Assembly: GCF_011764445.1 (NCBI RefSeq)
Contig: NZ_BLPG01000001.1
Coordinates: 1,364,001 to 1,428,000, forward strand
Source of the DNA: Phytohabitans rumicis
Lineage (GTDB): Bacteria > Actinomycetota > Actinomycetes > Mycobacteriales > Micromonosporaceae
Direction: 5' to 3'
Length of the DNA stretch: 64,000 nt
The first letter of the stretch is position 1, and every line of letters starts with the position of its first letter. The notes under the pieces were generated by a model. That model saw only the letters and a list, made by a program, of their open reading frames with translations. It was not told where the DNA came from and ran no database searches. Shown here piece by piece: positions 2,997-21,015 of the stretch. Position numbers and translations under genes: made by a program.

Positions 2997-4045
2997 CAGC
3001 GGCGACCGGTCTTGACGATTTCGCCGAGCGCGGCGCGGCGTTCGGGTGCGCTGTCACTGCCGAACCGCTCCACTGTGAACCGCACTACCGCGCCGACGCC
3101 CCGAATCGCCAACCACTGGCAGGCGGTCGGGTCAATGGGTCCAACCTCTTCCGAAGGCAGGCCGGTCGCAGCGAACTCGCGGAGCTGTCTACTCGCGACG
3201 ATGGAGCGCAGCCGAGCCGTACGCCAGCGCCCATACCAGATAGGCACGTAGCAATGTCCGGCCGTGCCCTGTCCAATATGGCCGGTCGTGATGGCAAAGC
3301 CCTCGCGGCCGCCACGTACACGGATGCGAATCCGCTGCGCGATGGGGAACTGCGAGATGCCCCACAGGGCACACCACGCGAGTGCGTTGTCGGTCGGCCC
3401 TGGCGAGGCGAAACCGGTGGGCGTGCGGCTGGTTGCGGCGTCCTTGCCGATCTCGTCGCGGCAGCTGCGGCCGAGCAGTCCGTCGCTGACCGCCGCGGCG
3501 GTCCGGGCGGCGACCGCCGCGGCCAGTGGGCGTATCCGGTTGCCCACAAACTCGGAGCCCTGGTTGCGGGGCTGCATCTCCAGTCGGCTGGCGCCGTCGT
3601 CCTGGAACCGCTCGCCCTTACGGTTGAGGCTCCAATAGCTCGGTTCGCCGAGCGCGGCGAGCAGCCGCAGGTCGAGCAGCGCCCGCGACCGGGTCAGCCG
3701 GTCGAGCACGTCGCGTCGGCGGTCCTGGAGCGAGCTCCAGCCTTCGCTGCTGGGGATGACGCTGAGTCGAGGGCTCATCAGCGCTCGCGGCTCGCCGTCG
3801 CTGACTGCCCGGCTCGGCCAACTGTCCGGGGTGGCGCGCTGGGCCGCGTGTGCGCGTACGATTTCGCCGATCGTCTCCGGCGTGGCCCGCGGCGCCGTGA
3901 GCACCGGTCGGGACTCCATGCCGCCGGTCCAGAACAGCCGGACGTCGTCGAGTCCACTGTCTTCGACGATCGCCGCGAGGCCGTACAGCGCCATGTGCGA
4001 AAGCATCGTCTTCGGTTCGGCGGTCGCCAGTACGAAGTTGGTCAT
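2996..4045 (-). CDS. csb3: Csb3 / Cas8-like large-subunit candidate, type I-G (I-U)
   Basis: The 349-residue protein begins MTNFVLATAEPKTMLSHMALYGL and sits between cas3 and cas4-cas1, the slot of the effector large subunit. Length and N-terminus fit the Csb3 family (called Cas8u2 in some schemes) rather than Csx17, which is about twice as long. Its role as PAM-recognising subunit of the effector is inferred from that position. The start at 4045 forms an ATGA overlap with the cas3 stop. The frame stays open to 4711, but that upstream part is Arg/Pro-rich antisense of cas3 and is not believable coding. Family assignment rests on context and length more than on a diagnostic motif. Confidence 0.8.
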   Translation of the reverse strand: MTNFVLATAEPKTMLSHMALYGLAAIVEDSGLDDVRLFWTGGMESRPVLTAPRATPETIGEIVRAHAAQRATPDSWPSRAVSDGEPRALMSPRLSVIPSSEGWSSLQDRRRDVLDRLTRSRALLDLRLLAALGEPSYWSLNRKGERFQDDGASRLEMQPRNQGSEFVGNRIRPLAAAVAARTAAAVSDGLLGRSCRDEIGKDAATSRTPTGFASPGPTDNALAWCALWGISQFPIAQRIRIRVRGGREGFAITTGHIGQGTAGHCYVPIWYGRWRTARLRSIVASRQLREFAATGLPSEEVGPIDPTACQWLAIRGVGAVVRFTVERFGSDSAPERRAALGEIVKTGRR

Positions 4046-6780
4046 GATCCCTCCGCGGAGACTTGGCCGTCGGCGGCGCGCAGCAACGCCTCCAGGTAGG
4101 CGCAGCCCCACACACCCCAACGGGCGTGTGTACGTTCGATCAGTTCGTCCCACAGACCCTCGTCGAAGAGCGCGGTGGTGACGTCGTCGGCGCCGTCGAC
4201 CAACTGCTCGCCCGTGTGCGGGAAGCCGTGCCGGCCGTGCCCGTGGCTCGTGCCGATCAGCCGAGCCGCCAGATCCCGACAATTTTGGTCCAGTGTGGAC
4301 AGTTCGGGCCAGGCGCGTACGACGGAGAGCTGCTCGTGCCGCCAGCGGGTCGGCAGGCCGGAGGCCGTGCGGAGCCGCCGGATCATCCGTGCGTCCCGCA
4401 CCCCGCTCTTCGCCAGTGGCTCCCCGAGGGCAGGGTCGGCATGCAACGAACGCTGAAACCGTTCGTCCACTTTGCCGTCGTCGTGGTGAAGTCCGGCGAG
4501 GCGGAACGTCTCTACCAGTTCCGCGCCGAGGCCAAGCCGGGTGGCGACCAGCTTGGCCCGTTCCGCTACGGCTTCGGCATGCCGCCGAAGCGTGACACGC
4601 CTGCGGTACGGGGTCCACGTCTGCCGAAGTTCCGCGTCCGCGAACGCCTGGCGAAGGTCGACCACTATCAGCCGGAGCAGGTCCCGCTCGTCGTCGTCCT
4701 GATCGCGCCAAACCAACCTCGCCTCGGCTCCGGCCGGCTCGTTCTCCGGTCGGTCGAGCAGGTCAGCCGCTGCAAGCACCATCGGCCGCGGCGTCAGCTC
4801 CTCTTGGTGTTCACGGAGCAGCCGGGCGATCGCGACCGGGTCGGGGTCATCCGCGTTGTCGGTCGCGGCGGCCACGGCGCCGAGGAGCCGGCGATGCCCG
4901 GCGGTCTCGCCCTCGATCCGGAGCACGACCTCACCCGGACCCGGTCTGTCGAGCGCGTCCAGCACGTCGTCGACCCGCTCGTTGCCGTCCGGCGTGAAGA
5001 CCTTGGCACGGAACAGCTCCGCGGTGTCGTCCACGACCACCTGGTCGCCCGGCCGCAGCCGTTCGTCGCCCAAGGGGCACGGTGACTCGCCGGGCCGGAG
5101 CAGCAGCGCGCCCGGATCCGGCTTCAGGCGCGCCCGGATCGTCGCCGCATGGCGGATCGAGACCGGGAACACCTCGTATCCGCGGGGCGGCAGTGCCTCG
5201 ATCAGCCGTACGGCGTCGCCCGGATCCTCCGGCAGCGCGTGCCGTACGACGAGGCCGAACTCGTGGTCCTCCTCGTCGAGGTCGTCGGAGAGCCACAGGT
5301 CGAGGTCCTCCTGCGGGGCGGCCAGGTCGTCGCTGGTGCGGGCCAGATGCCATGCCTCGGCCAGCTCCAGTCGCTGGAACAGCTCGCGGCTCGGTGTCGG
5401 GACCGGCGGCCGGTCCTCGCACAGCGCCCACGGCGCCAGGCCGTGCGGATCGGACTGCCGCTCCGCCAGCCACGCATGGGCCGCCGCCAGGTCTTCACGA
5501 CGGTACGGCCCGAGCCGGTCCCCGGCGGGAAGGTCGGCCGCCGGCACCACCACGGAGATGGCCGTTGTACGCCGCCCGAGCCGGTTGACACGGCCGGCCC
5601 GCTGGGCGATGGCCCCACCGGGTGCCAGCTCCGTCACCATGGCGGCCAGGTCGAGGTCGACGCCGACCTCAAGGCTCTGGGTGGCCACCAGCACGTCGAC
5701 CGTGGCGTCGCCGGCGATGCTGAGCAGACCCGACCGTGGCGGCTTCAGACGGATCACGTCGTGTGGGCGCACCCGCCCGCAGACCAGTTCGATCTTCATG
5801 CCACGCGCGCGCAACTCGGCGGCGACGTCGGCGGCGACAGCGACCGTGTTGACGAAGCACCCGACCGTCGGGCCGTATGCCTCACGCAGCCGTACCGCCT
5901 CGTCCGCCAGCGCTGTGACGCCTGCCTTCCGGGCCGGGCCGCCGGGTGGGAGCGGCCAGGACGCGAGCGGCAGCAGGGTAACCGGCTTCGGCGTGGTCAG
6001 CCGTTGTCGCAACGGTTCGTCCACCTCCAGGTCGTCCGGTTCGACACCGACCGCTACACCGGCGTCAGCGGTGGGCGTGGCGGTGGTCTCGACGACCTGA
6101 AGGACTGGGACGTCGAGTGGCTCCTCCGCGACCGCGGCCAGCTCGGCGACGCGGCGCGCCGTGGTGACCAACTGCCGAGAGAGGTGTGCCTCGTCGACGA
6201 CGGCGACCGTGTCATACGCGAGCAGGCCCGCCTCACGGGGCCGCGCCTGTGCCCGCGACCCGTAGCCAGACAGCAGCAGGCGCGAGCCCCACATGTCGGG
6301 CGTCGCGCAGAGCACAGCGCAACCGACCGGGTCATCCAGCCACTCCCGCGACGGGGGCGCCCCGCCACGCAGCAATGGCGTCCACAGCAGCGGGTCGACC
6401 GGCCTCCGGCTCTGCCGGCGCAGCAAGCTGAGCGCCTCGGCCATCCGGGTGAGTACGCCGTCACCATCGCGGGCATCCGTCAGGCGTTCCGCGACAGACT
6501 TCGCGTGCTCGTGCTGGTCGTCGACGAGGGCGCGGCGGTCGACGACGAGCGCCAGCCGGCGCGGGACCCGGACCGGGTGACCGGACGCCATCAGCGCCAC
6601 CGCGAACACATGTACGTCGATGACGCTGGTCTTGCCCGCTCCGGTGGGCGCGACGAGCTGGTCCGGCCACCGTCCGGTGTGGAGGAGGTGGTCAAGAAGC
6701 CGCTCCTGCCACCGGAACGGCGTATGTCCATCATGGACCTCACCGAAGAAGGCGCCGAAGTCGGTGCGGTCGAGGCTCAT
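4042..6780 (-). CDS. cas3: Cas3 helicase-nuclease, type I-G (helicase first, HD last)
   Basis: The 912-residue protein starts with a superfamily 2 helicase: Walker A APTGAGKT at 44-51, DEAH at 196-199, ATQSLEVGVDLD and the arginine motif QRAGRVNRLGR near 395. The HD nuclease is C-terminal, with HHDDGK at 765-770, RHE near 814, SHGHGRH around 845-851 and a final Asp in LLRAAD near 904. Helicase-then-HD order is characteristic of type I-G/I-U and opposite to most Cas3 proteins. It unwinds and shreds the DNA strand displaced by the effector. The start overlaps the csb2 stop (ATGA) and the end overlaps csb3, so expression is coupled. All key motifs appear intact. Confidence 0.97.
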   Translation of the reverse strand: MSLDRTDFGAFFGEVHDGHTPFRWQERLLDHLLHTGRWPDQLVAPTGAGKTSVIDVHVFAVALMASGHPVRVPRRLALVVDRRALVDDQHEHAKSVAERLTDARDGDGVLTRMAEALSLLRRQSRRPVDPLLWTPLLRGGAPPSREWLDDPVGCAVLCATPDMWGSRLLLSGYGSRAQARPREAGLLAYDTVAVVDEAHLSRQLVTTARRVAELAAVAEEPLDVPVLQVVETTATPTADAGVAVGVEPDDLEVDEPLRQRLTTPKPVTLLPLASWPLPPGGPARKAGVTALADEAVRLREAYGPTVGCFVNTVAVAADVAAELRARGMKIELVCGRVRPHDVIRLKPPRSGLLSIAGDATVDVLVATQSLEVGVDLDLAAMVTELAPGGAIAQRAGRVNRLGRRTTAISVVVPAADLPAGDRLGPYRREDLAAAHAWLAERQSDPHGLAPWALCEDRPPVPTPSRELFQRLELAEAWHLARTSDDLAAPQEDLDLWLSDDLDEEDHEFGLVVRHALPEDPGDAVRLIEALPPRGYEVFPVSIRHAATIRARLKPDPGALLLRPGESPCPLGDERLRPGDQVVVDDTAELFRAKVFTPDGNERVDDVLDALDRPGPGEVVLRIEGETAGHRRLLGAVAAATDNADDPDPVAIARLLREHQEELTPRPMVLAAADLLDRPENEPAGAEARLVWRDQDDDERDLLRLIVVDLRQAFADAELRQTWTPYRRRVTLRRHAEAVAERAKLVATRLGLGAELVETFRLAGLHHDDGKVDERFQRSLHADPALGEPLAKSGVRDARMIRRLRTASGLPTRWRHEQLSVVRAWPELSTLDQNCRDLAARLIGTSHGHGRHGFPHTGEQLVDGADDVTTALFDEGLWDELIERTHARWGVWGCAYLEALLRAADGQVSAEGS

Positions 6781-8297
6781 CGGACCATCCTCCGCGCGAT
6801 GTCGGCGGGCAGGTCCACGGGCACGAGCAGGCCGCCGCCGAGGTGCCGGCTCTGCCCGATGGCGGCGATCGTCCGGGGACCGGTTAGGTCGCCAAGGCCC
6901 AGGATGGCCCGGTACGGCTGGATCAGCGTGTCTGGGTGCACTCGGTGCACGTAGCGGCCGACGTCGCCGTCCATCACCCGTACCGCGGACTGGACCCGAA
7001 CCCCGCGGCCGGCGGCAGCTTCGGCCAAGGCTCGATATCGTGCGTCACCCCGACCCAGTGCCGAGATCTCCTGCCGCCAGACCAACGCGACCGACAACGC
7101 CGCGGCGTCGGCCAGAGACCAGCGGCCGCCGCGCGGCGGCCGGGTGTCGGGCACGGCGACTGGATCGGTCTGCCACCAACGCTCAGTCCCCGCGGCCGGC
7201 TCCGGCCAGAACCGGTCGGCCGGGACCTCCACCGGCACACCGACAGAGAACGGGCCGGAAGCGACCCGGACGACCCGCAGCCGTGGCGCCGCGATCCGGA
7301 TCAGGGCGAGGTCGACGTCGCTCGCCTCCCGCGGTAACAGCAACAGCACCGCCGCCGCACCGCCGACGGCCGGAGCACCGGGTCCAAGGAACTGGATCGC
7401 GCACCGGTTGGCGGGGCGTGGCACCCCTGCTTCGTAGACGCCGGTCAGGATCGCGGGCGCACCGTCACCGACCAGCGCGATGAGCGTGCGATGCACGGCG
7501 ACCGCGCACCGCACCCGCGACTCCGGCGGGATCGGCCGCTCCAGCGGAAAAAGCAGCGCGGACGCCCATGGAGTCGGCGAAGGTGGCGGCTGGGGCTGGG
7601 AATACCGGCCGATAGTCAGGCTTGCCGTCGCCACCGGGGGCGGCTCGGTCCGCTCGCTCGACCGGTGCGCGTCGGCCTTCAGCGGCGGCGGCGAAGAGGC
7701 CGCCCGGTGCGCCGCCTCCAGCGCATCGACCCGGCCGGTGACGGCCACCGCGAGGTCCAGGCCGTCGCCGGTGAATAGGTCGGCCTCCCGGTCGAGGCGG
7801 TGGGTCGGCTCGGCATCGACCACCGAGAGCAGCACCGGCGACTCGCTGGTCCCGAGATACGGCACTTCGGGACACAACTCGGCCAGCGCGGCAGCGACCG
7901 GCTCGGGCGGGCTCTGCTCCCACGTCCAGGCGAACCGTCCGGTCACCGCGACACCACGAACCGCCGGCTTGCCGATCAGCTTGTCCGAGAGTGGGTTGCG
8001 GCCCTCTTTGACGACCAAACCCTCTTTCCGGTATGCCGTCGCGGCACCGCCGTTGCGCAGAGTCTGCGGCACGGCGATGCCGTCCGGCGGGTTCGCCTCC
8101 AGCCAGCGCAACGCGTCGCGGTCGGCGTCACATGGCCGCAGCCCATCGGCCTCGGCGACCGCCCGGACGCCCTGCGCCGCCGCGCAGAGCAGGGCGGCGT
8201 GCAGCCGGGCCGGTGACGGCAGCGGGTCGGGCTGGCCGTCGCCTATGTGTCCCTTGTAGACACCAAGAAGGGGCTCGGCGACGATCGCGAAGCTCAC
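6777..8297 (-). CDS. csb2: Csb2 (GSU0054 family), Cas5-Cas6 fusion
   Basis: The 506-residue protein starts at a GTG overlapping the csb1 stop (GTGA). The N-terminus, VSFAIVAEPLLGVYKGHIGDG followed by PLPSPARLHAAL, matches Csb2, in which a Cas5-like part caps the crRNA 5' handle. The C-terminal half ends in a glycine-rich segment, GQSRHLGGGLLVPVD, as in Cas6-like RAMP domains. Csb2 is therefore expected to process pre-crRNA at the repeat hairpin and stay in the effector. The frame remains open to 8522, but the added residues overlap csb1 and lack conservation, so the GTG at 8297 is preferred. Confidence 0.9.
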   Translation of the reverse strand: MSFAIVAEPLLGVYKGHIGDGQPDPLPSPARLHAALLCAAAQGVRAVAEADGLRPCDADRDALRWLEANPPDGIAVPQTLRNGGAATAYRKEGLVVKEGRNPLSDKLIGKPAVRGVAVTGRFAWTWEQSPPEPVAAALAELCPEVPYLGTSESPVLLSVVDAEPTHRLDREADLFTGDGLDLAVAVTGRVDALEAAHRAASSPPPLKADAHRSSERTEPPPVATASLTIGRYSQPQPPPSPTPWASALLFPLERPIPPESRVRCAVAVHRTLIALVGDGAPAILTGVYEAGVPRPANRCAIQFLGPGAPAVGGAAAVLLLLPREASDVDLALIRIAAPRLRVVRVASGPFSVGVPVEVPADRFWPEPAAGTERWWQTDPVAVPDTRPPRGGRWSLADAAALSVALVWRQEISALGRGDARYRALAEAAAGRGVRVQSAVRVMDGDVGRYVHRVHPDTLIQPYRAILGLGDLTGPRTIAAIGQSRHLGGGLLVPVDLPADIARRMVR

Positions 8298-9598
8298 TTC
8301 TCTTCCGCATCCGTGTCGACCGCGCCGGAGACAATGTCCGGGTTGCCGGTGACCCGCAATGCCAGGCCCGACCACGTGACGTCGGCGACCTTCTCGGCGT
8401 GCGCGAGCGCCTCGCTCAGCAGCAGGTCGGCCGCGTCGATGGAGAGCGGCTCGACGTCGAGGAACTCGCCGCCCCGCTGGTCGAGCCGGACCATCGGCAC
8501 CTCCGCCTCGACCAGGTCGCAATTGGCCCGCAAGTAGAGCTCGGCGTCAGACCGGGCGAGCGCGTTGAGCGCCAGCGCGGCCAGCAACGCCCGGCACGCC
8601 GCGTCGCCCTCGACACCGGCCCCGAACCGCATCTGGCGCAGCGTGGCGAAGGACAGTACGTGCGTACGGATGATGGTGTCGCAGGCGACGCCGGCCAACT
8701 GGTCCAACGTCGGCGGGATTCCACCTAGACCGAGCGCGGACGCCGACTTCGCGTCGCCGGGCTTGATCCCGTTCGCCACCTTGACGATACCGTCATAGTT
8801 GCCTGGACTCAGCTCCGCCCGCTGCCGTTCGGCCGTCTCGGCCATCACCTTCTTGCCAAGGTTGATCTGCATACCAACCGGGTCGACCCGCGCGCCGCCG
8901 CGCATCCCAGGCTTGGGCTCGGTCAGCACACCCGTCCCGTCACGGCTCGCCGAGACGAAGCCGACGATCTCCCCGACCAGCGCGCTACGCCAGCGACCCT
9001 GCCGGCTGCGCCGGCTCGAGTCCCAGCCCCCGAAGACCAGCGTCACCGGGCTCGTCTCCAGCAACGCCCGCGCGTTGGCCGGGGTCGCGTCCCGGACGGC
9101 GCGGTACGCCGCCGTCTGCGTGGTCGGCTGCCCGTCGATCATGCCGGCGCGGATGTGCCCGTCGAACACGCGGTGTGGCAGCGTGAGGTCGTAGTAGCGT
9201 TCGACCATGCCGTCACGCTCGTACGTGACCTGCACGTGCGGCACACGGGACAGCAACGGGTGCCCGTCCTCGACGGCCTGAGCCAATGCCTGCTCAGCCC
9301 GGTTGAGCTGTGACTGCTTGGAGTCGATGACGACCGCGTAGCGGCTCTCGTCACCGAGGTAACGCTGCTCGTACGCGTACACGCCACCCTTCTTGCCTCG
9401 CTCGGCGAACTTGGCCGGAGCGACCGACGTATGCCGCCCACCGGCCGGCTCCAGCGACGTCGTCGACGCAAGGCAACTGGACCCGCCCGGCGACCCAGCG
9501 GCAAGCAGGACAGCAAGATCCAACGAACGCATAAGCCAACTCTCCATTTCGGACAACGCGGGTTCGGGCATCGGGGTCAGCCGAAACCGCCGCCCCAC
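8294..9598 (-). CDS. csb1: Csb1 (Cas7 backbone subunit, GSU0053 family)
   Basis: The 434-residue protein carries the Csb1 landmarks in order: VVIDSKQSQLNRAEQAL, LTLPHRVFDGHIRAG, VTLVFGGWDSSRRS and SALVGEIVGFVS. Csb1 is the Cas7 RAMP that polymerises along the crRNA spacer. It is the first gene of the cas operon, so the promoter should lie in the 153-bp gap upstream. Two starts are possible: GTG at 9598, used here, or ATG at 9571 (MPEPALSEMESW). Neither has a convincing Shine-Dalgarno sequence, and the shorter one would lose nothing recognisable. The end overlaps csb2 by four bases. Confidence 0.93.
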   Translation of the reverse strand: MGRRFRLTPMPEPALSEMESWLMRSLDLAVLLAAGSPGGSSCLASTTSLEPAGGRHTSVAPAKFAERGKKGGVYAYEQRYLGDESRYAVVIDSKQSQLNRAEQALAQAVEDGHPLLSRVPHVQVTYERDGMVERYYDLTLPHRVFDGHIRAGMIDGQPTTQTAAYRAVRDATPANARALLETSPVTLVFGGWDSSRRSRQGRWRSALVGEIVGFVSASRDGTGVLTEPKPGMRGGARVDPVGMQINLGKKVMAETAERQRAELSPGNYDGIVKVANGIKPGDAKSASALGLGGIPPTLDQLAGVACDTIIRTHVLSFATLRQMRFGAGVEGDAACRALLAALALNALARSDAELYLRANCDLVEAEVPMVRLDQRGGEFLDVEPLSIDAADLLLSEALAHAEKVADVTWSGLALRVTGNPDIVSGAVDTDAEEK

Positions 9599-9751: not shown

Positions 9752-12700
9752 CTACGTCGCGTTCGATGTGACAGCCGCGCCTCCTCCCAAAGGTGATGTA
9801 GCTGGGCTGCCGGAAGCGGCGGAAGGCGAGCGGCGGGCGCGGGCGACGACGTCCTCAGGGGATAGTGGGCTCGCGGGGTGGTGGCTGAGGCACAGCGGGG
9901 TCCGCGCCTTGCGGAACGGCTGACCCTCGACCGCCACATAGAACTGCCCGCTCCTCAGGCGAGAGATGTCCGGTACGTCGCCGCCCTTGAAGCGAGCCAT
10001 CTCGCGGGCCGCCTCGATGTGCACCGGCGCGTTGAGAAGCCCGAAGAACTGCGTCGCCGCGTTGCCGGGTAGTTGGCTGTGCAAGCCTTTGGGCGCCTGG
10101 GTGGCGAAGACCAGGCCGAGGCCGTACTTGCGCGCCTGGGACGCGAGCATCAACGTGCTGCGCGTGCAGGCCGTGACCGGGCCGGACGGCGCCAGCGTCT
10201 GCGCCTCGTCCATCACCAGCAGGCCGCCCAGTGGCCGGTCGAGGGCCGGGTTGCGCTTGATCCAAGAGAAGAGGGCCATCTGGAGTTGGTTGACGAAGCC
10301 CTGCCGCTTCTCCTCGCCCGGCAGTCCGACGAAGCTGATGACCGACACGCGGGCGCGCTTGCCCGGTGCCGGCGTCAGCAGCGTGCCCGGGTCGGCCGAC
10401 TCGCCGGTGCCACCGAAGAGCGGGTCGTTGATCCGGGCAGCCTCCAGATTCTCCGCCAGGTCGGCGGCGATCGCCGCAGCGCCGATCAGCTCGCTCACCC
10501 CGTCGGGCAAGTCCCGCAGCAGCTCGATCAGGCCGCTGAGGGTCGCCGCCCCGCCGTGCCGGCCGTGGTACCGCAATGCCTGCCGCAACACCGCCTGGCC
10601 ACGCAGGGACTTGGCCGTGTTGGCGGCCACCTGGGCGCGCGGGGCTAACGCGTCGACTGCGCTGTCGACCGCCTGGGTGAACTCGTCAGGGTCGTCGCGC
10701 ACGCCGCTGAAGTCGGGCAGCGGCTGGAAGGTCAGCGGCCTTCCGCCCTCCCGCCCCGGCGTCCAGACCACGACCTCCGTCGAGTCGAGGTAGTCGGTCG
10801 CCGCCTGCGCGTCGGCGTCGCTCCACGCATGTGGCGCGTCCGGCCAAGCGTCGCCGAGGCGGGCGAGGTCGTTGTTGGGATCGAGGACGATCGCGGAGAC
10901 GCCCAGCAGCGCGCACTCCTCGACCAGCCGTCGGATGAGGACTGTCTTGCCCGATCCCGACCCGGCGAAGATCGCCGTGTGCTTGCGCAGCGCGGCGAGC
11001 TCCACGTGGATGGGGTCGTCCCGGTCGAATTCGATACCCACCTGGATGTACGCCCCAGCCGGTGTGGCCACCGCAACGCTCCCGGTATCAACGCCGGCTG
11101 GTTCCAGAGTCACCTCGACCTGCGTGACAGACGGGTCAGCGTCCGCCGCGGCAGTCGGTTCGGTGTCCACGCCGGCGGTCACGGCATCAACCCAGTCGGC
11201 CCGAAGGGGCGTCTCCACGTCGACCGGCGTCACTCCCGCGCCAGGTTGGACGCTCTCAGCGGCTGGCTCGCGTCCGGCATCAGCCAGCGCGGTCGCCAGC
11301 AGTGCGATCCGCGAGGCCGGGCGCCGATCGGCCAGCCAGGCTTGGAGATCGTCCGGTTCCTCGGCGAGCAACGTCCGTAGCGCGACAAGGCTGCGCAGGT
11401 CGTTCTCGCCGAGCGGCAGCGTCCGCCCGCCGACCGCGACGAACTCCTCCACCGCCTTGCGCCGCTTGGGACTCTCCGACCACTCGTCGTTGCGCAGTAC
11501 GAAAAGCCGCCGCTGGGCGACCCCGTGGGCCAGGCCGGCAGCCACGCAGGCGTTGCGCAGGCGGGCCAGCTCAGCGTTGTAATGCTGCGCGGCAATAGCC
11601 CGGAAAGCCCAATGGGCCTCGTCCCCATTCCGCTCGTCCAGCGTCCGCCGCAGCCGTGCATGCAGCGCGGGCTTGCGGACCGGGATCGTGTCCTGGTCGA
11701 AGTCGGCGTCCGTACCCTCCCTGATCCACGCGTTCAGGGCGGACGCGAGCAGGGACGGCACCTCCGTATCCTCGTTCTCCGGGTCGAGCAACCTGGCCAC
11801 CTGTGCGTGTTCCCGCAGCGCCGCGTACCGCTCGTCCAGCAGCCGTAGCGACGAGCGGTCGGCCTGCGCTGGCACCGGCGCCGCTGTCTCGGCTGCGGCC
11901 GCGAGCGTCGTCATCTCGGTGAGCTCGCCGTTGAGTACGCACGAGCGGATGTGTCGTTCGACGTTGATGAGCAGCTGTCGCGGCGTGAAGTCGGCGGCGT
12001 CGGCGAACGCCTCGGGCCGCACTGGCCAAGTCGGGTACGGCGGCACGAACCCGACCTCGTCGTAGTGCGCAGCGAGTCGGCGCTCGATCAGCGACCTGCC
12101 GACGCCGGCGTCCGGGATCGACTCGAGCGTGGCTGTCTCGCGAAACCGGTCCTGCACGGTGTCAACCGCGTTGCTCTTGATCACCGCCCACGACACGGGC
12201 AGCAGAGCGAGAACGGTCACCGTGCGCCAGGTCATCTCACGCAGCTCCATCAGGCCGCCGGCGACCTGGTCGAGCCGGACCGCCGCGCGCCAGTCCTCTG
12301 TATCGGTCTCGGTGGGCGTAGCAGCGCTGAAGCTTCGTTTTGCCACCTGAGCGATGAGGCCGTCGACCTGGTCTACCGCGATGACCGAGGGCCCGGTGAG
12401 CGCGAGGAGTCGGGACACGTCGGAGACGAGTTCCTGCGCCAACCTGCGGGTCGGCCCGATGCCCCACGCGGTCCGTTCGCCGGCTTCCGCCTCGTCCGCA
12501 GCGAGCAAATACGACATCGCGACGTCCTGCACTCGCTGGTCGGGACCGGCGAGCAGGGCCAGGGCACGGGCGGTGTCCCGGCATCCGATCCCGATCTGGC
12601 GGCTCATGCCGCCCAGGGCCGCGGCGAACGCGTCCAGCCGCTCTGGTGTCATCGGTGCCCGACCAGCGACCGCCATCCGGGTAACCACGGGAAGGTCGAG

Positions 12701-13099
12701 CGCGTCGGTAAGGCGTTGCAGGAACACGTGCAGCTGCGTCGTACCGTCGCCATCGACCGGCTGGTGCAGGCCGTCAACCATCGACACCGAGGCACTGCGC
12801 CAGAACGCGTCGGCGTCGAGCAGGTTGACCAGAAAGAAGTAACCTCCCCGGAGTTGGGTTAACTCACGGACCCGGCTGAGCAGATGGGTCTTCCCGGCAC
12901 CCCGCTGGCCCTTCACCGCGACGCCGATGGGGCTGGCGTCCGGACTACGTTCGGCCGCGGCCAAGCCGTCGAGGACGGTCGTGAGAACGTCCGTATGCAG
13001 GCCATCGACATGGAACCGTGGGGGGTGCCAGACGTCGTTCCTGGTCGGCGCGTAGTTGAACTGGAGGTGCGCGAGCGCCTTCAGCATCGTCTCGGTCAC
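9752..13099 (-). CDS. Dual-ATPase protein: N-terminal AAA, C-terminal HerA/FtsK-type ATPase
   Basis: The 1115-residue protein has two P-loops. The first, GQRGAGKT at 64-71, is followed by IAVDQVDGL near 245, an ORC/KAP-like AAA pattern. The second, GSGSGKT near 713, with a Walker B LLVMDEAQTLAP near 960 and GLVFATQAPKGL near 1000, is typical of HerA/VirB4-type pumping ATPases. The 250-700 middle is helical and unassigned. HerA ATPases commonly pair with nucleases in DNA-end processing and phage defence, and a nuclease gene lies two genes upstream. The GTG start overlaps the preceding stop (GTGA). The gene is last in a four-gene cassette, and 153 bp separate it from csb1. The ATPase calls are firm; the defence role is inferred. 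Confidence 0.85.
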   Translation of the reverse strand: MTETMLKALAHLQFNYAPTRNDVWHPPRFHVDGLHTDVLTTVLDGLAAAERSPDASPIGVAVKGQRGAGKTHLLSRVRELTQLRGGYFFLVNLLDADAFWRSASVSMVDGLHQPVDGDGTTQLHVFLQRLTDALDLPVVTRMAVAGRAPMTPERLDAFAAALGGMSRQIGIGCRDTARALALLAGPDQRVQDVAMSYLLAADEAEAGERTAWGIGPTRRLAQELVSDVSRLLALTGPSVIAVDQVDGLIAQVAKRSFSAATPTETDTEDWRAAVRLDQVAGGLMELREMTWRTVTVLALLPVSWAVIKSNAVDTVQDRFRETATLESIPDAGVGRSLIERRLAAHYDEVGFVPPYPTWPVRPEAFADAADFTPRQLLINVERHIRSCVLNGELTEMTTLAAAAETAAPVPAQADRSSLRLLDERYAALREHAQVARLLDPENEDTEVPSLLASALNAWIREGTDADFDQDTIPVRKPALHARLRRTLDERNGDEAHWAFRAIAAQHYNAELARLRNACVAAGLAHGVAQRRLFVLRNDEWSESPKRRKAVEEFVAVGGRTLPLGENDLRSLVALRTLLAEEPDDLQAWLADRRPASRIALLATALADAGREPAAESVQPGAGVTPVDVETPLRADWVDAVTAGVDTEPTAAADADPSVTQVEVTLEPAGVDTGSVAVATPAGAYIQVGIEFDRDDPIHVELAALRKHTAIFAGSGSGKTVLIRRLVEECALLGVSAIVLDPNNDLARLGDAWPDAPHAWSDADAQAATDYLDSTEVVVWTPGREGGRPLTFQPLPDFSGVRDDPDEFTQAVDSAVDALAPRAQVAANTAKSLRGQAVLRQALRYHGRHGGAATLSGLIELLRDLPDGVSELIGAAAIAADLAENLEAARINDPLFGGTGESADPGTLLTPAPGKRARVSVISFVGLPGEEKRQGFVNQLQMALFSWIKRNPALDRPLGGLLVMDEAQTLAPSGPVTACTRSTLMLASQARKYGLGLVFATQAPKGLHSQLPGNAATQFFGLLNAPVHIEAAREMARFKGGDVPDISRLRSGQFYVAVEGQPFRKARTPLCLSHHPASPLSPEDVVARARRSPSAASGSPATSPLGGGAAVTSNAT

Positions 13100-13761
13100 G
13101 AGACCCCCATCGAGATCGAGTGCTTGGGCTGATCACCGATCACCACCGCCGCGGCCCGAGTACGCGCGTCGAGCGTCTTCTGGTTGGCCTCGGGCAGGAG
13201 GGTCACGCCCCGCCGGCGGTTGAGCCGGCGCAGCGCCGCGTCAACGTCGGCCGGGACGAGGTCGCCGATCACGTCACGCAGGTCGGCGAGGTTCACCAGG
13301 TCACCGGCACGGTGGGCGATCATCCGGTAGGCCGCGCGCACGCGCTCCTCGACATTCTGCTCGGCCGGGGCCCGTTCGCGAGATGGCAAGCCGGTCGCGA
13401 CGGGAGGGTTCGACATGGCGACGAACTCGGCGAGGCTGGACCGCTGGGCCGCGAGGAAGCGACCCAACCGCCGGAGCACCGCGTACAGAGCGCCACCGGC
13501 GGCACCTGAACGAGGTGGCGCCGCCCCGACGTCAAGCTGGGTGGCGCAGTGCGCCCATCCCTTGTCTCCCAACGCCAGTACGAGCCGGCCCGAGGCGCGC
13601 TCTACCTCTATCAACTTCAACCGCTCCAGCTTTTCCCGCGACCCCTTCTTCAACTGGCACCCATGGTCACGAGTCAAACTCACATTGGGAACCGGCCCCG
13701 CCTCGGCCATGAGAATGAAGAGCGCGGCCGCCTCGACCGATGTCAGGTGTTCGTTCGGCAC
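13096..13761 (-). CDS. Unrecognised wHTH-like protein of HerA-nuclease cassette
   Basis: The 221-residue protein is not a family I recognise. Two segments look like small helical DNA-binding folds: residues 5-70 (LTSVEAAALFILMAEAGPVP, then a KLERLKLIEVERASGRLVL wing-like stretch) and residues 135-200 (VNLADLRDVIGDLVPADVDAALRRLNRRRGV). The start is a GTG one base after the nuclease stop, preceded by AAAGGA. An ATG far upstream at 13872 would add residues antisense-like to the nuclease. Its stop overlaps the HerA start in GTGA. It plausibly bridges DNA, nuclease and ATPase, but that is inference from position only. Confidence 0.7.
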   Translation of the reverse strand: MPNEHLTSVEAAALFILMAEAGPVPNVSLTRDHGCQLKKGSREKLERLKLIEVERASGRLVLALGDKGWAHCATQLDVGAAPPRSGAAGGALYAVLRRLGRFLAAQRSSLAEFVAMSNPPVATGLPSRERAPAEQNVEERVRAAYRMIAHRAGDLVNLADLRDVIGDLVPADVDAALRRLNRRRGVTLLPEANQKTLDARTRAAAVVIGDQPKHSISMGVS

Positions 13762-13762
13762 G

Positions 13763-14614
13763 TCAGTTTCCTTTCCCGGCCCGCCTACGGTTGGCGAGAA
13801 ACTGCTGAAGAAGTGCGAGCACGTTCTCGATGTCGTCGAGCACCTGCGTGTTGGTGAAGCGGAGCACGGCATACCCGTTGAGTTGGAGCATCACGTCACG
13901 GTGACGATCTTCGGCGTATTTCCCTGCCGCCCGATGATCATCGCCGTCGATTTCGACGATGCACCGCTCCCTTTTCCACAGCAGGTCGACGCGGACGGGG
14001 TTAACCAACGGGCCCGGCCGGATGGTGTGATTCCAGGCCCGGCCGGCCGCCCACGCCCGATCGGCGAGGACGGCTTCAAGCACCACCTCGGCGCGGCTAG
14101 TGGGATGCGGCTTGCCGACGACGATATGACGCTGTGACCTGCGAGCCGATCGCTCCCGACGCGGCCGCGGATTCTCGTCGATCGGCTCTCGGGGTCGGAC
14201 GCTGGAAACCGCCGGCGCGGATCCCGCGACCACGGTCTCCCGTCCAGGCCGAGCCACAGCAATCTCCGACAACCAGTCGATGGCCGGCAGGGATTCACCG
14301 CAGATCCACACCGCGAGCCGACCACAGTCGACCAGCCATTGCGCCGCCCGCACCAGGGCGAGCGCTTCACTCTCGTCGAGATCGTCGGGTGCCTGCAGGA
14401 GCAACGCACAGGCCGGCCGCCCGAAGCTGGCCGCGAGTACCCGCGCCAGCCCGAGCACGCGTACCTCGGGCGGGTGCCGTCGCGTTCGCGGCCCCCGCCT
14501 GGCCAGAGCACCGATCGCCAGGTCGGCGAGAAAAGGACCGTACTGGGCGGTTTCGGCGGCATGAGCAAAAGCGACCGCCCGGACGGCAGTCACCGCGGCA
14601 CCGGCCGACGTCAC
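13763..14614 (-). CDS. PD-(D/E)XK nuclease, Vsr/DUF559-like C-terminal domain
   Basis: This 283-residue protein starts at a GTG overlapping the preceding small gene (GTGA). The C-terminal third carries a restriction-endonuclease-fold motif set, VRVDLLW (Asp near 208) then IVEIDGDDH (Glu and Asp near 219-223), followed by EDRHRDVMLQLNGYAVLRFTN. This is the pattern of very-short-patch-repair-like DUF559 nucleases. The N-terminal 150 residues are Ala/Leu-rich and unassigned. Translation from an ATG at 14806 gives a poor-quality N-terminus in the frame opposite the small gene and is rejected. Together with the HerA-like ATPase it suggests a DNA-degrading complex. Confidence 0.75.
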   Translation of the reverse strand: MTSAGAAVTAVRAVAFAHAAETAQYGPFLADLAIGALARRGPRTRRHPPEVRVLGLARVLAASFGRPACALLLQAPDDLDESEALALVRAAQWLVDCGRLAVWICGESLPAIDWLSEIAVARPGRETVVAGSAPAVSSVRPREPIDENPRPRRERSARRSQRHIVVGKPHPTSRAEVVLEAVLADRAWAAGRAWNHTIRPGPLVNPVRVDLLWKRERCIVEIDGDDHRAAGKYAEDRHRDVMLQLNGYAVLRFTNTQVLDDIENVLALLQQFLANRRRAGKGN

Positions 14615-15012
14615 GATGCCTTCCACCCCGGCAGCCAAGCCGGGAAAAGTTGACCGGCGGCCACCTCCATCTCGTCCAGAGTGGAGGCGACCGTCGCGTT
14701 CTGGCTCCGGGACCGTGTCACCTGTTGGACGAGGACGGCCGGAGTATTGAGCGGCGCATTCGCTACCGCCAGGTCGAGATCGTTCGGGCGGAAGCACTTT
14801 ATCCATACCACCCGATCAGTCGGAATCTCTGAAAGAGAAAAGGCCACCGGCACACCTAACATGAGATGACGGCGCTCATTTTGGTGGGCCGCCAGTAGGG
14901 CGGCAATCGCCCGGTCGGGGACGAGTCGGCACTGTCCGGCACCACTTGCTGGCCGATCAACGGGGTTATTCCGGGTACACTCGGTCGACGCAGGACAGGA
15001 TCCCGGGATCAA
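14611..15012 (-). CDS. Small unrecognised protein, first gene of HerA-nuclease cassette
   Basis: The open frame encodes 133 residues from an ATG at 15012, or 83 from an ATG at 14862 (MLGVPVAFSLSEIPTDR). The second half, DRVVWIKCFRPNDLDLAVANAP and PAVLVQQVTRS, looks like ordinary folded protein. The first 35 residues are less convincing, so the start is uncertain. The TGA stop overlaps the nuclease GTG, which argues that this frame is truly translated and coupled. I do not recognise the family. Upstream, 15013-15151 separates it from the oppositely directed array 2 leader and should hold its promoter. Confidence 0.55.
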   Translation of the reverse strand: MIPGSCPASTECTRNNPVDRPASGAGQCRLVPDRAIAALLAAHQNERRHLMLGVPVAFSLSEIPTDRVVWIKCFRPNDLDLAVANAPLNTPAVLVQQVTRSRSQNATVASTLDEMEVAAGQLFPAWLPGWKAS

Positions 15013-15265: not shown

Positions 15266-18200
15266 GTCGCAGCTCCCAGCGGAGCTGCCCTTCATCGAGG
15301 CGTCACGAGTCCCACTCCAGCCACGGGCACGGCCGCAAGGTCGCAGCTCCCAGCGGAGCTGCCCTTCATCGAGGCGTGCGGTGCCCGTGCAGTCGGCCTG
15401 GAACAGCCGTCGCAGCTCCCAGCGGAGCTGCCCTTCATCGAGGCGCGCGCGGCGTGCGGCCAGGCGGCGGCGGGGGCGGCGTCGCAGCTCCCAGCGGAGC
15501 TGCCCTTCATCGAGGCACGGTGTCGGAGGCCGCGTTTTTCATCGCGTCCGCGTCGCAGCTCCCAGCGGAGCTGCCCTTCATCGAGGCCCGACCACGGCCA
15601 CGCCCAGGACGACGAGCACCTTCCCGTCGCAGCTCCCAGCGGAGCTGCCCTTCATCGAGGCGTGACGCCGGTAGAGCCGGCCGAGTTTGCGACCTTCAAC
15701 AGTCGCAGCTCCCAGCGGAGCTGCCCTTCATCGAGGCGGAAGTTCTCGATGCGTTGGCGCCGGCCGGCGTCGTCGCAGCTCCCAGCGGAGCTGCCCTTCA
15801 TCGAGGCGTGGCAGTCACGGTCATATCCCCGATCAGCCCAGGGTCGCAGCTCCCAGCGGAGCTGCCCTTCATCGAGGCGGCGCCGGGTAGCCGGCGGGGG
15901 CGCCGGGGTACTGCGGTCGCAGCTCCCAGCGGAGCTGCCCTTCATCGAGGCCCCGACTCGCCGCCGCGGCCATCGTGTCGTTCGTGGGTCGCAGCTCCCA
16001 GCGGAGCTGCCCTTCATCGAGGCGGGGGTGTCCAAGGGTACCCATACGGGGAAAAACAGACAGTCGCAGCTCCCAGCGGAGCTGCCCTTCATCGAGGCTC
16101 GGTTGGGCGTACGGAGGCGGCATTTCGACGGTCGCAGCTCCCAGCGGAGCTGCCCTTCATCGAGGCACAGCAAGGGATTCCCGCTCATCGTCCACTAAGG
16201 GTCGCAGCTCCCAGCGGAGCTGCCCTTCATCGAGGCTCCTCGGGTTCACGTGATCACTGTCGGCTGATCGACTGGTCGCAGCTCCCAGCGGAGCTGCCCT
16301 TCATCGAGGCGAGGTCGCGCCCTCGTGCGTGCTCGTGCAGATGGGTCGCAGCTCCCAGCGGAGCTGCCCTTCATCGAGGCCTGGCCGCCGGCGACGGTGA
16401 AGATGGTGCGGGTGTCGGCCGGTCGCAGCTCCCAGCGGAGCTGCCCTTCATCGAGGCTGCCCGGGGTGCCCGTCGTGCCCTGGCTGCCCTGTCGCAGCTC
16501 CCAGCGGAGCTGCCCTTCATCGAGGCTTCTATCGGCCCTCGGGAGTGACCCGGGGGCCGATCCGCGTCGCAGCTCCCAGCGGAGCTGCCCTTCATCGAGG
16601 CGTGTCGGAGATCGGCGAGCACCGCGAGATTGCGCACGCTGGTCGCAGCTCCCAGCGGAGCTGCCCTTCATCGAGGCTCCGGCATGTCCGGCAGCAGGAT
16701 GTCGCCGAAGATGTCGAAGGTCGCAGCTCCCAGCGGAGCTGCCCTTCATCGAGGCAACTACGACGGCTCGGACATCACGACCGACTAGTCGCAGCTCCCA
16801 GCGGAGCTGCCCTTCATCGAGGCGTTTCCTTCGTCGGGCGCGGGCAGACGCTCGAACAGCGTCGCAGCTCCCAGCGGAGCTGCCCTTCATCGAGGCGCGA
16901 TCCTCGACCGGATGGAGCGGGAAGCCGAGCAGTCCGGTCGCAGCTCCCAGCGGAGCTGCCCTTCATCGAGGCCCCCGAAACGTCGTCGCGGCTGGCCTGC
17001 CCGGCGGAGCAGGTCGCAGCTCCCAGCGGAGCTGCCCTTCATCGAGGCACACGGATTTCCGGTGACGGATCTCCGTCAATTTCAATGTCGCAGCTCCCAG
17101 CGGAGCTGCCCTTCATCGAGGCCCAGCTCCGCGGTGAGCGCCTCTCGCACCGTCAGGTCGCAGCTCCCAGCGGAGCTGCCCTTCATCGAGGCAGCACGAT
17201 CGTAGACGTCCGGCGAAGACATGAGGTCGCAGCTCCCAGCGGAGCTGCCCTTCATCGAGGCAGCGTTGCGCAGTTCGCCGCGGATCGTCAGGGGCCGAGG
17301 TCGCAGCTCCCAGCGGAGCTGCCCTTCATCGAGGCCCACCTGCGGCCCGGCTGGCCGCGCTGCGACGTGCTGTCGCAGCTCCCAGCGGAGCTGCCCTTCA
17401 TCGAGGCCCGTCCCCGCCCGGGTCGTCCATGTAGGTCGGCATCGCGGTCGCAGCTCCCAGCGGAGCTGCCCTTCATCGAGGCCAGGCCATCAGGGCACCT
17501 CCAGCCGATCCCACGACACGGTCGCAGCTCCCAGCGGAGCTGCCCTTCATCGAGGCGTGGATCGCCCTGACGCTTCCAGCGCCCGTGGTGCAGGTCGCAG
17601 CTCCCAGCGGAGCTGCCCTTCATCGAGGCCGCCTGGCGAAGGTCGACGGCTCTCCTGTGTGGACGGTCGCAGCTCCCAGCGGAGCTGCCCTTCATCGAGG
17701 CACGGCGTCTGCGGCCCCGCAGCGCTTCGGCCCGATGAAGTCGCAGCTCCCAGCGGAGCTGCCCTTCATCGAGGCTAGTTCTCTGACCTCTCCCACCGTT
17801 TGTGGCCGTGTCGCAGCTCCCAGCGGAGCTGCCCTTCATCGAGGCGCGAGCGCGGCGGCCGGCGGCTGGCTGCTGGACCAGGTCGCAGCTCCCAGCGGAG
17901 CTGCCCTTCATCGAGGCGGGAACGAGAGCAGTGCGGGCACTTCCACCGCCGCTGAAGTCACAGCTCCCAGCGGAGCTGCCCTTCATCGAGGCGTATGGCG
18001 TCAGGATTGGGTACAGCACGATCGTAGAGTCGCAGCTCCCAGCGGAGCTGCCCTTCATCGAGGCGGCCGCCACCACGCCCGCCACGCGCGCAGCAGCTCG
18101 GTCGCAGCTCCCAGCGGAGCTGCCCTTCATCGAGGCGCGAGGCCGGAAGGCCGCCGGTGACCGGTTCCAACGTTGCAGCTCCCAGCGGAGCTGCCCTTCA

Positions 18201-18793
18201 TCGAGGCGCCGCGCGCAGCGTGGCCACTGTGGACCCGTGCCGCGTTGCAGCTCCCAGCGGAGCTGCCCTTCATCGAGGCTGGACGAAGACCGGGTCGTTG
18301 GTGATCCGGTATCCGAGTTGCAGCTCCCAGCGGAGCTGCCCTTCATCGAGGCGCGTTGGGGATGCGCACGGGCCGGTATTCGGCCCCCGTCGCAGCTCCC
18401 AGCGGAGCTGCCCTATCGAGGCGCCTTCGCCGTGGTCAGCGCGGTCCCGGTCATCAGGTCGAGTCGCAGCTCCCAGCGGAGCTGCCCATCATCGAGGCTG
18501 TCTGGCGGATCCGCGGCACACCCCAATCGGGGTGGTCGCAGCTCCCAGCAAAGCTGCCCTTCATCGATCGAGGCCGGCCGCAGGCGATCTGCACCGTCAC
18601 GGGCGTCTGTCGCAGCTCCCAGCAGAGCTGCCCTTCATCGAGGCGTCTGCGCGGTCACGTCGTCGTAGAAGCCGGCGCATTCACGTCGCAGCTCCCATCG
18701 GAGTTGCCTTCATCGAGGCGCCGCGACGGTACTCGGAGGAACCTGGAAGACCTGCTGGTCGCAGCTCCCATCGGAGCTGCCCTTCATCGAGGC
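15266..18793 (+). CRISPR. CRISPR array 2 (type I-G), 49 repeats
   Basis: I count 49 repeats of 36 bp and 48 spacers, mostly 33-40 bp. In transcript orientation each repeat starts GTCGCAGCTCCCAGC and ends CCTTCATCGAGGC, with an 8-bp hairpin GCAGCTCC/GGAGCTGC closed by CAGC. It differs from the array 1 repeat at three positions: the second base, one loop base and one base in the 3' handle. Decay appears towards the right end: GTCACAGC at 17957, GTTGCAGC at 18172, 18244 and 18317, a 2-bp deletion at 18389, a 4-bp insertion at 18535, and substitutions or a deletion at 18463, 18609, 18685 and 18758. That is the old, trailer end. Confidence 0.99.
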
Positions 18794-19012: not shown

Positions 19013-19225
19013 CTATGCTGTCGACGCGGTAGGGGCGGCGTACGGCTGCCCCGCAACTTGGGCCAGCCCGGTGAAGAACGCCTGATAGAGGTGCATCAGG
19101 CTCTCGGCCAACTCCTCGCATTGGGACGGCTCGATCACGATGGCGTGCTTGTCTGCGTACGCGGCGATCCGCTGCGCTGCGACCGTCACCGCCGCCTTCG
19201 CAGCGTCCGAGTTCACCGGCATCAT
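19013..19225 (-). CDS. Small partner protein of XRE regulator
   Basis: This 70-residue helical, Ala-rich protein begins MMPVNSDAAKAAVTVAAQR, and its ATG overlaps the stop of the XRE gene upstream (ATGA). DUF5753-type regulators are often followed by a short co-transcribed partner such as a DUF397 protein. This one does not show the DUF397 pattern, so no family is assigned. Coupling makes it a believable gene. Confidence 0.6.
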   Translation of the reverse strand: MMPVNSDAAKAAVTVAAQRIAAYADKHAIVIEPSQCEELAESLMHLYQAFFTGLAQVAGQPYAAPTASTA

Positions 19226-20154
19226 GCCGCCACCCCCTGCCCGGCCAGCTCATCGGTCGGCTGGGCGGAACGGGAGCCGGCGAGCTTGGCGGCAGCTTGG
19301 CCGATCATCTCTGCGGATCGGGCCGGGTCCAGAGCGACTTCGGTGAGCTTGTCGAACGCCGCCGCATACCGGTCGGCGGCATCTGCTTCTAGGATCAGGC
19401 GGCCCCCGAGGTGCTCCACCACCGCGACCGGCGGGTACGGCCGGGCCATTCGGCAAAGAAGGAATGCTCCGTTGACGCCGGGATGCCAGCCCACCTGTGT
19501 GGGTAAGACGCGGACGTTTACGTGCGGCCGCTCGACCATGCGGGTCAGGTGCTCGAGTTGCTGCTGCAACACCAGCCGGCCGCCGACCGGCCGCGACAGC
19601 ACCGGCTCCTCCACCACGATCGTCAATCGGGTCGGGGGCTTCTTGTCCTCCAACACTTGCTGCCGGGCGATCACCTGCCGCACCACGTTGTCTGCCCGCA
19701 ACCCGTCCTTCTCCACCGCGCGCACAGCTGTGTCGGCGTACTCGCGGGTCTGTACCAGATCTGGCACCAGGGCGGCGGCGTAGATGCACAGCTCCTCAGC
19801 CCTACACTGCAACCACCACGGGTCGATCACCGTCCCTTCGGCATCGTCAACCGGGTCGTAGGCGCCGTATACCTGTTGCCACTGGCTGATACGCCATGCC
19901 TCCTGCGCCAGGTCCACGAGTTGGGTCCGCTTCGCCTGGTCGTGCACGCCGTACACGTCCAGCAGCGCGGACACGTGCTCGCGCCGGAAGGGCCATTCCG
20001 CCCGCTCATACCGGGCCAGCGTGGAAAACTCGACCCCCAGATACTCGGCGACGTACTTCAACGTCAACCCGCGTTCCTCGCGCAACGCTCGCATTCGCTC
20101 CCCCAGGAACTGGGCGCGCACGGTCTGCACGAACTGTTCTCGCTTCGTCGGCAC
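19222..20154 (-). CDS. XRE-family regulator with DUF5753 domain (first of tandem pair)
   Basis: The 310-residue protein has an N-terminal helix-turn-helix (residues about 15-75, MRALREERGLTLKYVAEYLGVEFSTLARYERAE) and a C-terminal DUF5753 domain with the usual PDLVQTREYADTAVRA, RQQVL, VEEPVLSRPVGG and VRVLPTQVGWHPGVNGAFLL blocks. Such proteins are abundant actinobacterial regulators tied to development and secondary metabolism. The gene lies 18 bp after a paralogue on the same strand and overlaps a 70-residue partner, so the three probably form one operon. Its targets are unknown. Confidence 0.93.
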   Translation of the reverse strand: MPTKREQFVQTVRAQFLGERMRALREERGLTLKYVAEYLGVEFSTLARYERAEWPFRREHVSALLDVYGVHDQAKRTQLVDLAQEAWRISQWQQVYGAYDPVDDAEGTVIDPWWLQCRAEELCIYAAALVPDLVQTREYADTAVRAVEKDGLRADNVVRQVIARQQVLEDKKPPTRLTIVVEEPVLSRPVGGRLVLQQQLEHLTRMVERPHVNVRVLPTQVGWHPGVNGAFLLCRMARPYPPVAVVEHLGGRLILEADAADRYAAAFDKLTEVALDPARSAEMIGQAAAKLAGSRSAQPTDELAGQGVAA

Positions 20155-20172
20155 CTTCGTGCCTCCTTCCTT

Positions 20173-21015
20173 TCACATCAATTCGGTAATCAACGCGGCC
20201 GATTCGGATGCCGGCAGCGCTGCGGCCCAGAGCTTGTCGAAGACGCTCGCGTAAGACTGGGCCGCCTGTCCCTCGTGGACAGCCGCATCGTGGACGTGGC
20301 TCGTGGAGGCCACGGTCCGTGGATACGGCTGGGGTAGCCCGAAAACGGTGAACGAGGCATCCATGCCTGACACATAGGCTGCCCGTGATGGCAGTACCCG
20401 CATCTGCCCGCGGTCGGCCGCCTTGCCCAGATGTGCAAGCTGAAGGCGCGCGGCGTCGCCGTTACCGCCGACCGGGCGATGCAGCACCGATTCGGTGACC
20501 ACCACGCGCAGACCGGCCGGCTCGCCGTCAAAGCGCTCCTGGCGGTCCCGGATCGCGCGCACCCACCAACGCACCTGCTCCTCCACGACAGCCGGGCCGA
20601 AGTCGCGATGAACCACCGCTTCCACGTAACCGGACACCCGTAGTAGATCCGGCACCAACGTCGCGCCGTAGCAGCTGACCCGCTCGGCGATCGACTCCAA
20701 CCACAGGTTGTCCAACATGGACACGTCCAGATCCGGGGCGTAGAAGTCGTCCTCCCACCGCGACAACCGGAACGCGTCGCGAGCCAGCGACAGCAGCCGG
20801 TCCCGCACGCGCTGCTCGTACACGCCATACGCGTCCAGCAGCGCTGTCACCTGCGCATGATGCAGAACCCGCTCACCGTGCTCGAATGCCTTCACATCCG
20901 CGTACTCGAAGCCGACCTGCACTGCCACGTACCGCAACGTCAAGCCTCGGTCGTCGCGCAGGTCCCGCATCTGCTGGCCCAGCCATCGCGAGCGCAGGGA
21001 GGCGACCACCCGCAA
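20173..21015 (-). CDS. XRE-family regulator with DUF5753 domain (second of tandem pair)
   Basis: The 280-residue protein has the same layout as its neighbour: a helix-turn-helix in residues 10-70 (LRDDRGLTLRYVAVQVGFEYADVKAFEHGE) and a DUF5753 region with TLVPDLLRVSGYVEAVVHRD, RQERFDG, VVTESVLHRPVGG and MRVLPSRAAYVSGMDASFTV. It precedes the 19222-20154 gene by 18 bp and ends with a short DUF5753 tail. The pair probably arose by duplication but is well diverged. It is divergent from the XRE-TPR gene at 21260, and the 245 bp between them would serve both directions. Confidence 0.92.
   Translation of the reverse strand: MRVVASLRSRWLGQQMRDLRDDRGLTLRYVAVQVGFEYADVKAFEHGERVLHHAQVTALLDAYGVYEQRVRDRLLSLARDAFRLSRWEDDFYAPDLDVSMLDNLWLESIAERVSCYGATLVPDLLRVSGYVEAVVHRDFGPAVVEEQVRWWVRAIRDRQERFDGEPAGLRVVVTESVLHRPVGGNGDAARLQLAHLGKAADRGQMRVLPSRAAYVSGMDASFTVFGLPQPYPRTVASTSHVHDAAVHEGQAAQSYASVFDKLWAAALPASESAALITELM

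Follow-up and report, generated by a model that had tools for sequence, protein, structure and literature searches.

A near-obligate winged-helix and AAA-HerA gene pair with exchangeable partners, encoded beside a type I-G CRISPR locus in Phytohabitans rumicis, is a probable modular anti-invader system

The cassette described here occupies positions 9752 to 15012, on the minus strand, of a 64,000-nucleotide stretch of the Phytohabitans rumicis genome (contig NZ_BLPG01000001.1, positions 1,364,001 to 1,428,000; hereafter the window), where it is flanked by an array of clustered regularly interspaced short palindromic repeats (CRISPR, at about 15.27-18.8 kb) and by the type I-G gene csb1 (open frame 8294-9598). 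Its core consists of two genes, one encoding a 221-aa double winged-helix (wHTH) protein (13096-13761) and the other an 1115-aa ATPase (9752-13099) composed of an N-terminal AAA domain of the AAA_16 type, a conserved middle domain and a C-terminal HerA ATPase domain; upstream of the pair lies a nuclease gene that is split in this genome. We propose that the cassette is probably a modular anti-invader system, in which a near-obligate wHTH and AAA-HerA core is combined with exchangeable effectors, and that it was recruited once beside a type I-G csb1 gene; the target is most likely phage or plasmid DNA. The initial annotation had described the same genes as a self-contained four-gene defence system of unfamiliar composition that travels with type I-G CRISPR. 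The genes are real, and the first two of the four are one split gene.

The relatives of the cassette were gathered through the ATPase. Of 553 confirmed relatives the 80 best were taken, which together with 40 chosen stretches, the window itself and 3 plasmid records, minus 9 duplicates, gave 115 loci with good ATPase matches. The profiles with which presence was counted derive from the 115 loci themselves, and a match was accepted wherever it lay in the fetched stretch; adjacency was measured on gene calls made by our own script. The wHTH gene is present in 115/115 of these loci, and in 105 of the 113 called pairs the two genes overlap (4 bases in 69 pairs, 1 base in 36). In the reverse search, carried out in 61 genomes of the family Micromonosporaceae, the ATPase adjoins 49 of the 50 full-length wHTH matches (compared by eye from listed coordinates), the exception being in G051; by genome, and at E ≤1e-5, the wHTH protein was found in 39 and the ATPase in 38 (with one weak match in G051). 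The wHTH protein and the AAA-HerA ATPase are thus a near-obligate pair and the core of the cassette. The pair recurs as a unit in varied contexts including plasmids, mostly without type I-G genes within four genes, and to this extent the system is self-contained as originally suggested.

Both ATPase sites of the large protein are conserved. The N-terminal part with the AAA domain (11825-13099, minus strand) carries a Walker A motif, GQRGAGKT, at residue 64 and a DQVD motif at residue 243, and the C-terminal part with the HerA domain (9830-11092, minus strand) carries a Walker A motif at residues 715-719 and MDEAQ at residue 963; the Walker A residues are invariant at both sites in 25/25 relatives, and among full-length ATPases the Walker A pattern is found at the N-terminal site in 113/114 and at the HerA site in 114/114. 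The HerA domain scores 35.9 bits against PF01935 (cut-off 23.2) and matches the solved HerA chains 4d2i, 9x1l, 8wiv, 8xau, 9c1m and 8ziq, of which others besides 8xau come from defence complexes. Chain 8xau is the HerA subunit of the DUF4297-HerA anti-phage complex (PMC11291478). The PADLOC model mad8 also matches the HerA part, with E 5e-17 in the window and in 25/25 relatives (best E 1.5e-23). AAA_16 was detected in 23/25 relatives at E ≤0.01 and falls below its cut-off in the window protein, the ORC-CDC6-like family PF24389 was detected in 2/25 (best E 0.0019), and no solved structure was matched by the AAA part at E <0.05. The conserved middle domain gave no informative profile match in Pfam or PDB.

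The AlphaFold model of the wHTH protein has a predicted local distance difference test score (pLDDT) of 91.0. The first wHTH domain is MarR/TubR-like, and the second, known from the model topology only, may be a separate module. As a side observation, matches to the second wHTH half alone (profile positions about 120-216) occur in other open frames (G014:C2:12826, G017:C44:160537, G002:C283:26709 and G059:C135:11896), with two such matches close together within one frame in G017.

Upstream of the core pair, the remaining two of the four open frames in the cassette region (14611-15012 and 13763-14614, both on the minus strand) had been annotated as a small protein and a nuclease. Matches to the small protein share one open frame with the DUF559 nuclease in 19/19 matching loci (phmmer, 43 other loci), and the DNA aligned with three relatives differs in the window by one base in length, at a G-run near 14,627; the operon therefore has three genes rather than four, with the nuclease gene split here. 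The former small protein is the 5' half of the nuclease gene (14611-14862, its open frame reaching 15012 with the likely start at about 14862), the break lies at 14620-14635, and the 3' half (13763-14614) encodes the rest of the N-terminal domain and the C-terminal DUF559/Vsr-like PD-(D/E)XK nuclease. The intact nuclease of the relatives has about 350 residues, with an N-terminal alpha/beta domain followed by the DUF559 nuclease, and its catalytic residues (D, E, D) are invariant in 52/52 and kept in the downstream half in the window. In a model of the nuclease from L042, an intact locus of Phytohabitans suffuscus, the N-terminal alpha/beta domain resembles AAA+ folds and the C-terminal fold is Vsr/DUF559-like; the P-loop pattern G....GK[ST] is absent from the first 200 residues in 65/65 homologues. 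The nuclease gene lies upstream of the wHTH gene, at a spacing of -53 to +46 bases, in 64/64 adjacent called pairs. The ratio of nonsynonymous to synonymous substitution rates (dN/dS) of the downstream half is 0.19-0.29 against three relatives, as compared to 0.25 between two of those relatives, and across all three cassette genes it is 0.16-0.34 against three relatives. Since the split half is under the same constraint as its intact relatives, we read the frame break as recent, or else as an assembly error. The broken nuclease frame may leave the system impaired in this genome, except in the case of a base-calling error or of some bypass of the break.

The partners of the core pair are exchanged between lineages. 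Among the 115 loci, 71 encode the DUF559 nuclease, 6 encode an AIPR protein, and 38 encode neither of these effectors. In a FastTree phylogeny of the 115 ATPases (L169 and L171-L174 being outside it), the DUF559 nuclease occurs in most branches and AIPR in two places, while a protein of about 700 residues that shows a P-loop but matches nothing in Pfam occurs in 7 rows, and a divergent WD40-protein gene in 14 rows of a 15-row clade, 12 of which also have a cluster holding a Trypco1 protein. Partner families were assigned by Pfam scans of one WD40, one Trypco1 and one AIPR protein, and the labels S and T denote our own clusters within four genes of the ATPase. Partner labels are clustered on the tree, with 16 changes compared to a shuffled mean of 50. 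Of the 6 AIPR genes, 3 share 4 bases with the ATPase gene and the remaining 3 lie downstream of it at a distance of 2 to 16 bases; the one protein tested matched PF10592 at E 3.8e-42, and a D...QAK motif, which we take to be nuclease-like, is present in 5/6 AIPR partners. AIPR has been tied to restriction systems (PMC3506569), and Trypco1 has been named in conflict systems (PMC7159879), in the portions of these papers available to us. The genome of the window itself has a second wHTH and ATPase pair (L040, G000:C1:9138000-9157000), preceded by a 700-residue P-loop protein (no Pfam match) in place of the DUF559 nuclease.

The link with type I-G CRISPR holds for one clade only. Type I-G genes lie within four genes of the ATPase in only 7/115 cassette loci, and these seven copies together with L044 (the G023 copy) form one 8-row clade with support 100 in the ATPase tree. 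From the other side, csb2 was found in 23/200 genomes of the family, at 27 places (two of them below cut-off), and an ATPase gene or remnant lies within 15 kb of 13 of these (counted by eye from listed coordinates), including a remnant (G081), a broken gene (G060) and a gene 10.5 kb away in the same island (G023). The type I-G genes linked to the cassette are of one variant. In L044, a Cas10/Cmr2 palm-domain gene (11639-13213) follows the ATPase gene and the type I-G genes are found about 10 kb further on, an island that mixes type III and type I-G and holds the cassette.

It might be argued that the cassette serves type I-G as a functional accessory, its motor and nuclease processing Cas3-generated DNA for adaptation or enlarging the destruction of the target. 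The order nuclease-wHTH-ATPase-csb1-csb2-cas3 occurs in 11 loci from five genus codes (including L173, where the ATPase is broken, and the window with its split nuclease), and pairwise identities of ATPase and cas genes rise and fall together (Spearman 0.85-0.90, 45 pairs, 10 loci); such a correlation, however, is also expected from plain vertical descent, and the association has a single origin. The ATPase is not a general core component of type I-G, as at 14/27 csb2 places no ATPase gene was found at a distance of up to 15 kb, although a few of these are on short contigs, where a neighbour could be missed. Within the same variant, L170 has no cassette alongside, L169 has only a remnant, and L173 (G060) has ATPase matches in several frames and a shortened called nuclease next to full-length cas genes. 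In seven loci, 62 to about 600 bases separate the ATPase gene from csb1. Repeats like those of the window are clearly on the nuclease side in four places only, namely the window, L042, L058 and L061; elsewhere there is a single match (L041), repeats at both ends (L172 and L173) or repeats only on the cas side (L045, L171 and L174), and in L043 none was found within reach. A role as a type I-G accessory therefore appears unlikely to us. Variant members without the cassette, with a remnant or with a broken ATPase, and the few nuclease-side arrays, argue for a link that is lasting and not obligatory, and we read the cassette as recruited once beside csb1 and retained across five genera, in some of which it has decayed or been lost.

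The ATPase was detected in 126/200 genomes of one family at E ≤0.001 (about five weak HerA matches included), the family being identified as Micromonosporaceae from named matches, and in 3/72,556 plasmid records; named relatives include members of the Streptosporangiaceae, Mycobacteriaceae, Nocardiaceae and Pseudonocardiaceae. The contexts vary and include a Tsukamurella plasmid and a Methylobacterium megaplasmid. The Tsukamurella plasmid (L007, 6308-15719) carries the cassette inside a run of ribosomal-protein genes, between rplN and rpsQ, together with a helicase gene and a toxin-antitoxin pair of the PIN/VapB kind.

Could the pair instead be a housekeeping DNA machine of actinobacteria, acting in end resection or in the control of segregation or conjugation? 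High prevalence in one family would fit such a role, as would neighbours that are common to some clades, for example beside L071 and L073, where the genes are, we assume, fdhD. Archaeal HerA-NurA provides a precedent (PMC12977600, as far as its available text goes). The distribution is patchy, however, with 22 of the 61 genomes having neither core gene and the copy number per genome ranging from none to at least three (G042), and the neighbour exchange on the tree, the plasmid copies and the decay beside cas genes also argue against a housekeeping machine, which we regard as rather improbable. A remnant of a Tn7/CAST-like element, with a TnsC-like AAA protein and a TnsA-like PD-(D/E)XK nuclease, is very improbable, given that the nuclease resembles Vsr/DUF559 and that the cassette carries a HerA domain, which to our knowledge is no part of Tn7.

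Several observations weigh against an anti-invader system as well. The ATPase is very common in one family, 126/200 genomes being more than is usual for a single defence system, and rare phylum-wide (3/246 genomes including the window's own); it had no match in 50,697 phage records, nor did a pattern scan of IMG/VR find it. The 38 loci with neither DUF559 nor AIPR mean that a nuclease is not always encoded nearby, and 19/115 loci have no recognised partner at all within four genes of the ATPase. The split nuclease undercuts any claim of a working copy in this strain, and the models of the wHTH protein and of the L042 nuclease both have predicted template-modelling scores (pTM) below 0.6 and gave no Foldseek match at E ≤0.001. 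On balance, we still favour the modular anti-invader system.

In such a system, the wHTH protein and the AAA domain would recognise invader DNA or load onto it, and the HerA part, as a hexameric ring of the kind solved in the DUF4297-HerA defence complex, would pump double-stranded DNA and feed it to the partner effector, here a DUF559/Vsr-type PD-(D/E)XK nuclease that would cut it. In DUF4297-HerA, the HerA ring and the nuclease are both activated when they assemble, according to the available part of the report (PMC11291478). Effectors (DUF559 nuclease, AIPR protein and others) would have been swapped between lineages, and the ancestor of the window copy would have been recruited once beside csb1 and since then mostly co-inherited with the type I-G locus, next to which the cassette probably serves as a co-located second line of defence. 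A bolder version, which we offer as doubtful, is that the pair is a general actinobacterial DNA-capture motor with plug-in effectors (Vsr-like nuclease, AIPR, WD40/Trypco1 and other modules), wired in one lineage to type I-G in such a way that Cascade or Cas3 and the motor-nuclease hit the same DNA as a two-stage weapon, the AAA-like, P-loop-less domain of the nuclease docking on the AAA ring of the motor. If the modular anti-invader system is real, a common and apparently unnamed actinobacterial defence family escapes the current catalogues, in which PADLOC matches cover only part of it, the HerA domain; a constant motor with exchangeable effectors would make a clean case for testing the way in which HerA machines pick out foreign DNA and load it, and the single lasting association with type I-G would allow mere co-location of neighbouring immune systems to be distinguished from cooperation.

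Directly downstream of the cassette and outside it, csb1, csb2 and cas3g (4042-9598, minus strand) match NCBIfam TIGR02570, TIGR02165 and TIGR02621, all above cut-off, and are followed on the same strand by a gene weakly similar to the type I-G Cas3-extension family (below cut-off), a cas4/cas1 fusion and cas2 (1084-4045). Csb1, Csb2 and Cas3g, together with the Cas4/Cas1 fusion and Cas2, identify this operon as type I-G. On the other side of the cassette lies CRISPR array 2 (15266-18793, plus strand; 48 repeat matches with ≤8 mismatches), the leader of which is probably at the cassette side because the repeats decay towards the high end; another array is found at the start of the window. The final repeats of array 2 (18350-18793) are degenerate, the mark of an array's old end. 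Beyond array 2 are two adjoining genes resembling the Sco1979 regulator family, below its cut-off (19222-21015), and a 1516-residue open frame (23435-27985) that contains about ten tandem repeats of 144 bases and matches TPR families.

The composition of the cassette is unfamiliar in so far as no model in Pfam, PADLOC or NCBIfam spans it entirely. With DUF4297-HerA and Sir2-HerA (Nezha) it has in common a HerA motor with an effector and a presumed ring with the nuclease, as far as the available parts of the reports describe them (PMC11291478, PMC12948488); unlike in those systems, the HerA protein has an extra AAA domain, the wHTH partner is constant and there are three genes, and neither DUF4297 nor Sir2 was matched by Pfam or PADLOC in the four open frames of the cassette. 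With MADS it shares a mad8-like HerA; the 314-position mad8 model covers the HerA part only, and no other mad model matched in the PADLOC scan, which was of those four frames only. Archaeal HerA-NurA likewise combines a HerA motor with a nuclease; the cassette nuclease is of another family, and NurA gave no Pfam match in the four frames. The literature examined contains no fused AAA-HerA ATPase with a constant wHTH protein, no Vsr-like effector with an N-terminal domain, no such exchange and no type I-G clade. The closest published kind, in the part of the paper available, is the predicted mobile capture systems composed of ORC/CDC6, a restriction endonuclease, HerA/FtsK and wHTH proteins (PMC10853773, NAR 2024), and as their parts are nearly the same as those of the cassette, we do not call the cassette categorically new. 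It differs from this class, as there described, in that AAA and HerA are fused in one protein of about 1.1 kaa and that the nuclease is DUF559/Vsr-like with its own N-terminal domain; moreover, the inactive restriction endonuclease domain that marks the class, between the AAA core and its C-terminal wHTH (PMC10853773), was not detected by profile match of the middle domain of the cassette ATPase, and type I-G CRISPR is unmentioned in the account of the class as far as it was available. In common with these capture systems, the cassette has an AAA ATPase with HerA/FtsK, a nuclease of the restriction endonuclease fold (predicted to be active in the cassette, and drawn from two nuclease families in that paper) and, as in a subset of them, a protein with at least two wHTH domains (2-4 in that paper), and it shares with them the occurrence in mobile contexts, the exchange of parts and the distribution of domains over one or several proteins.

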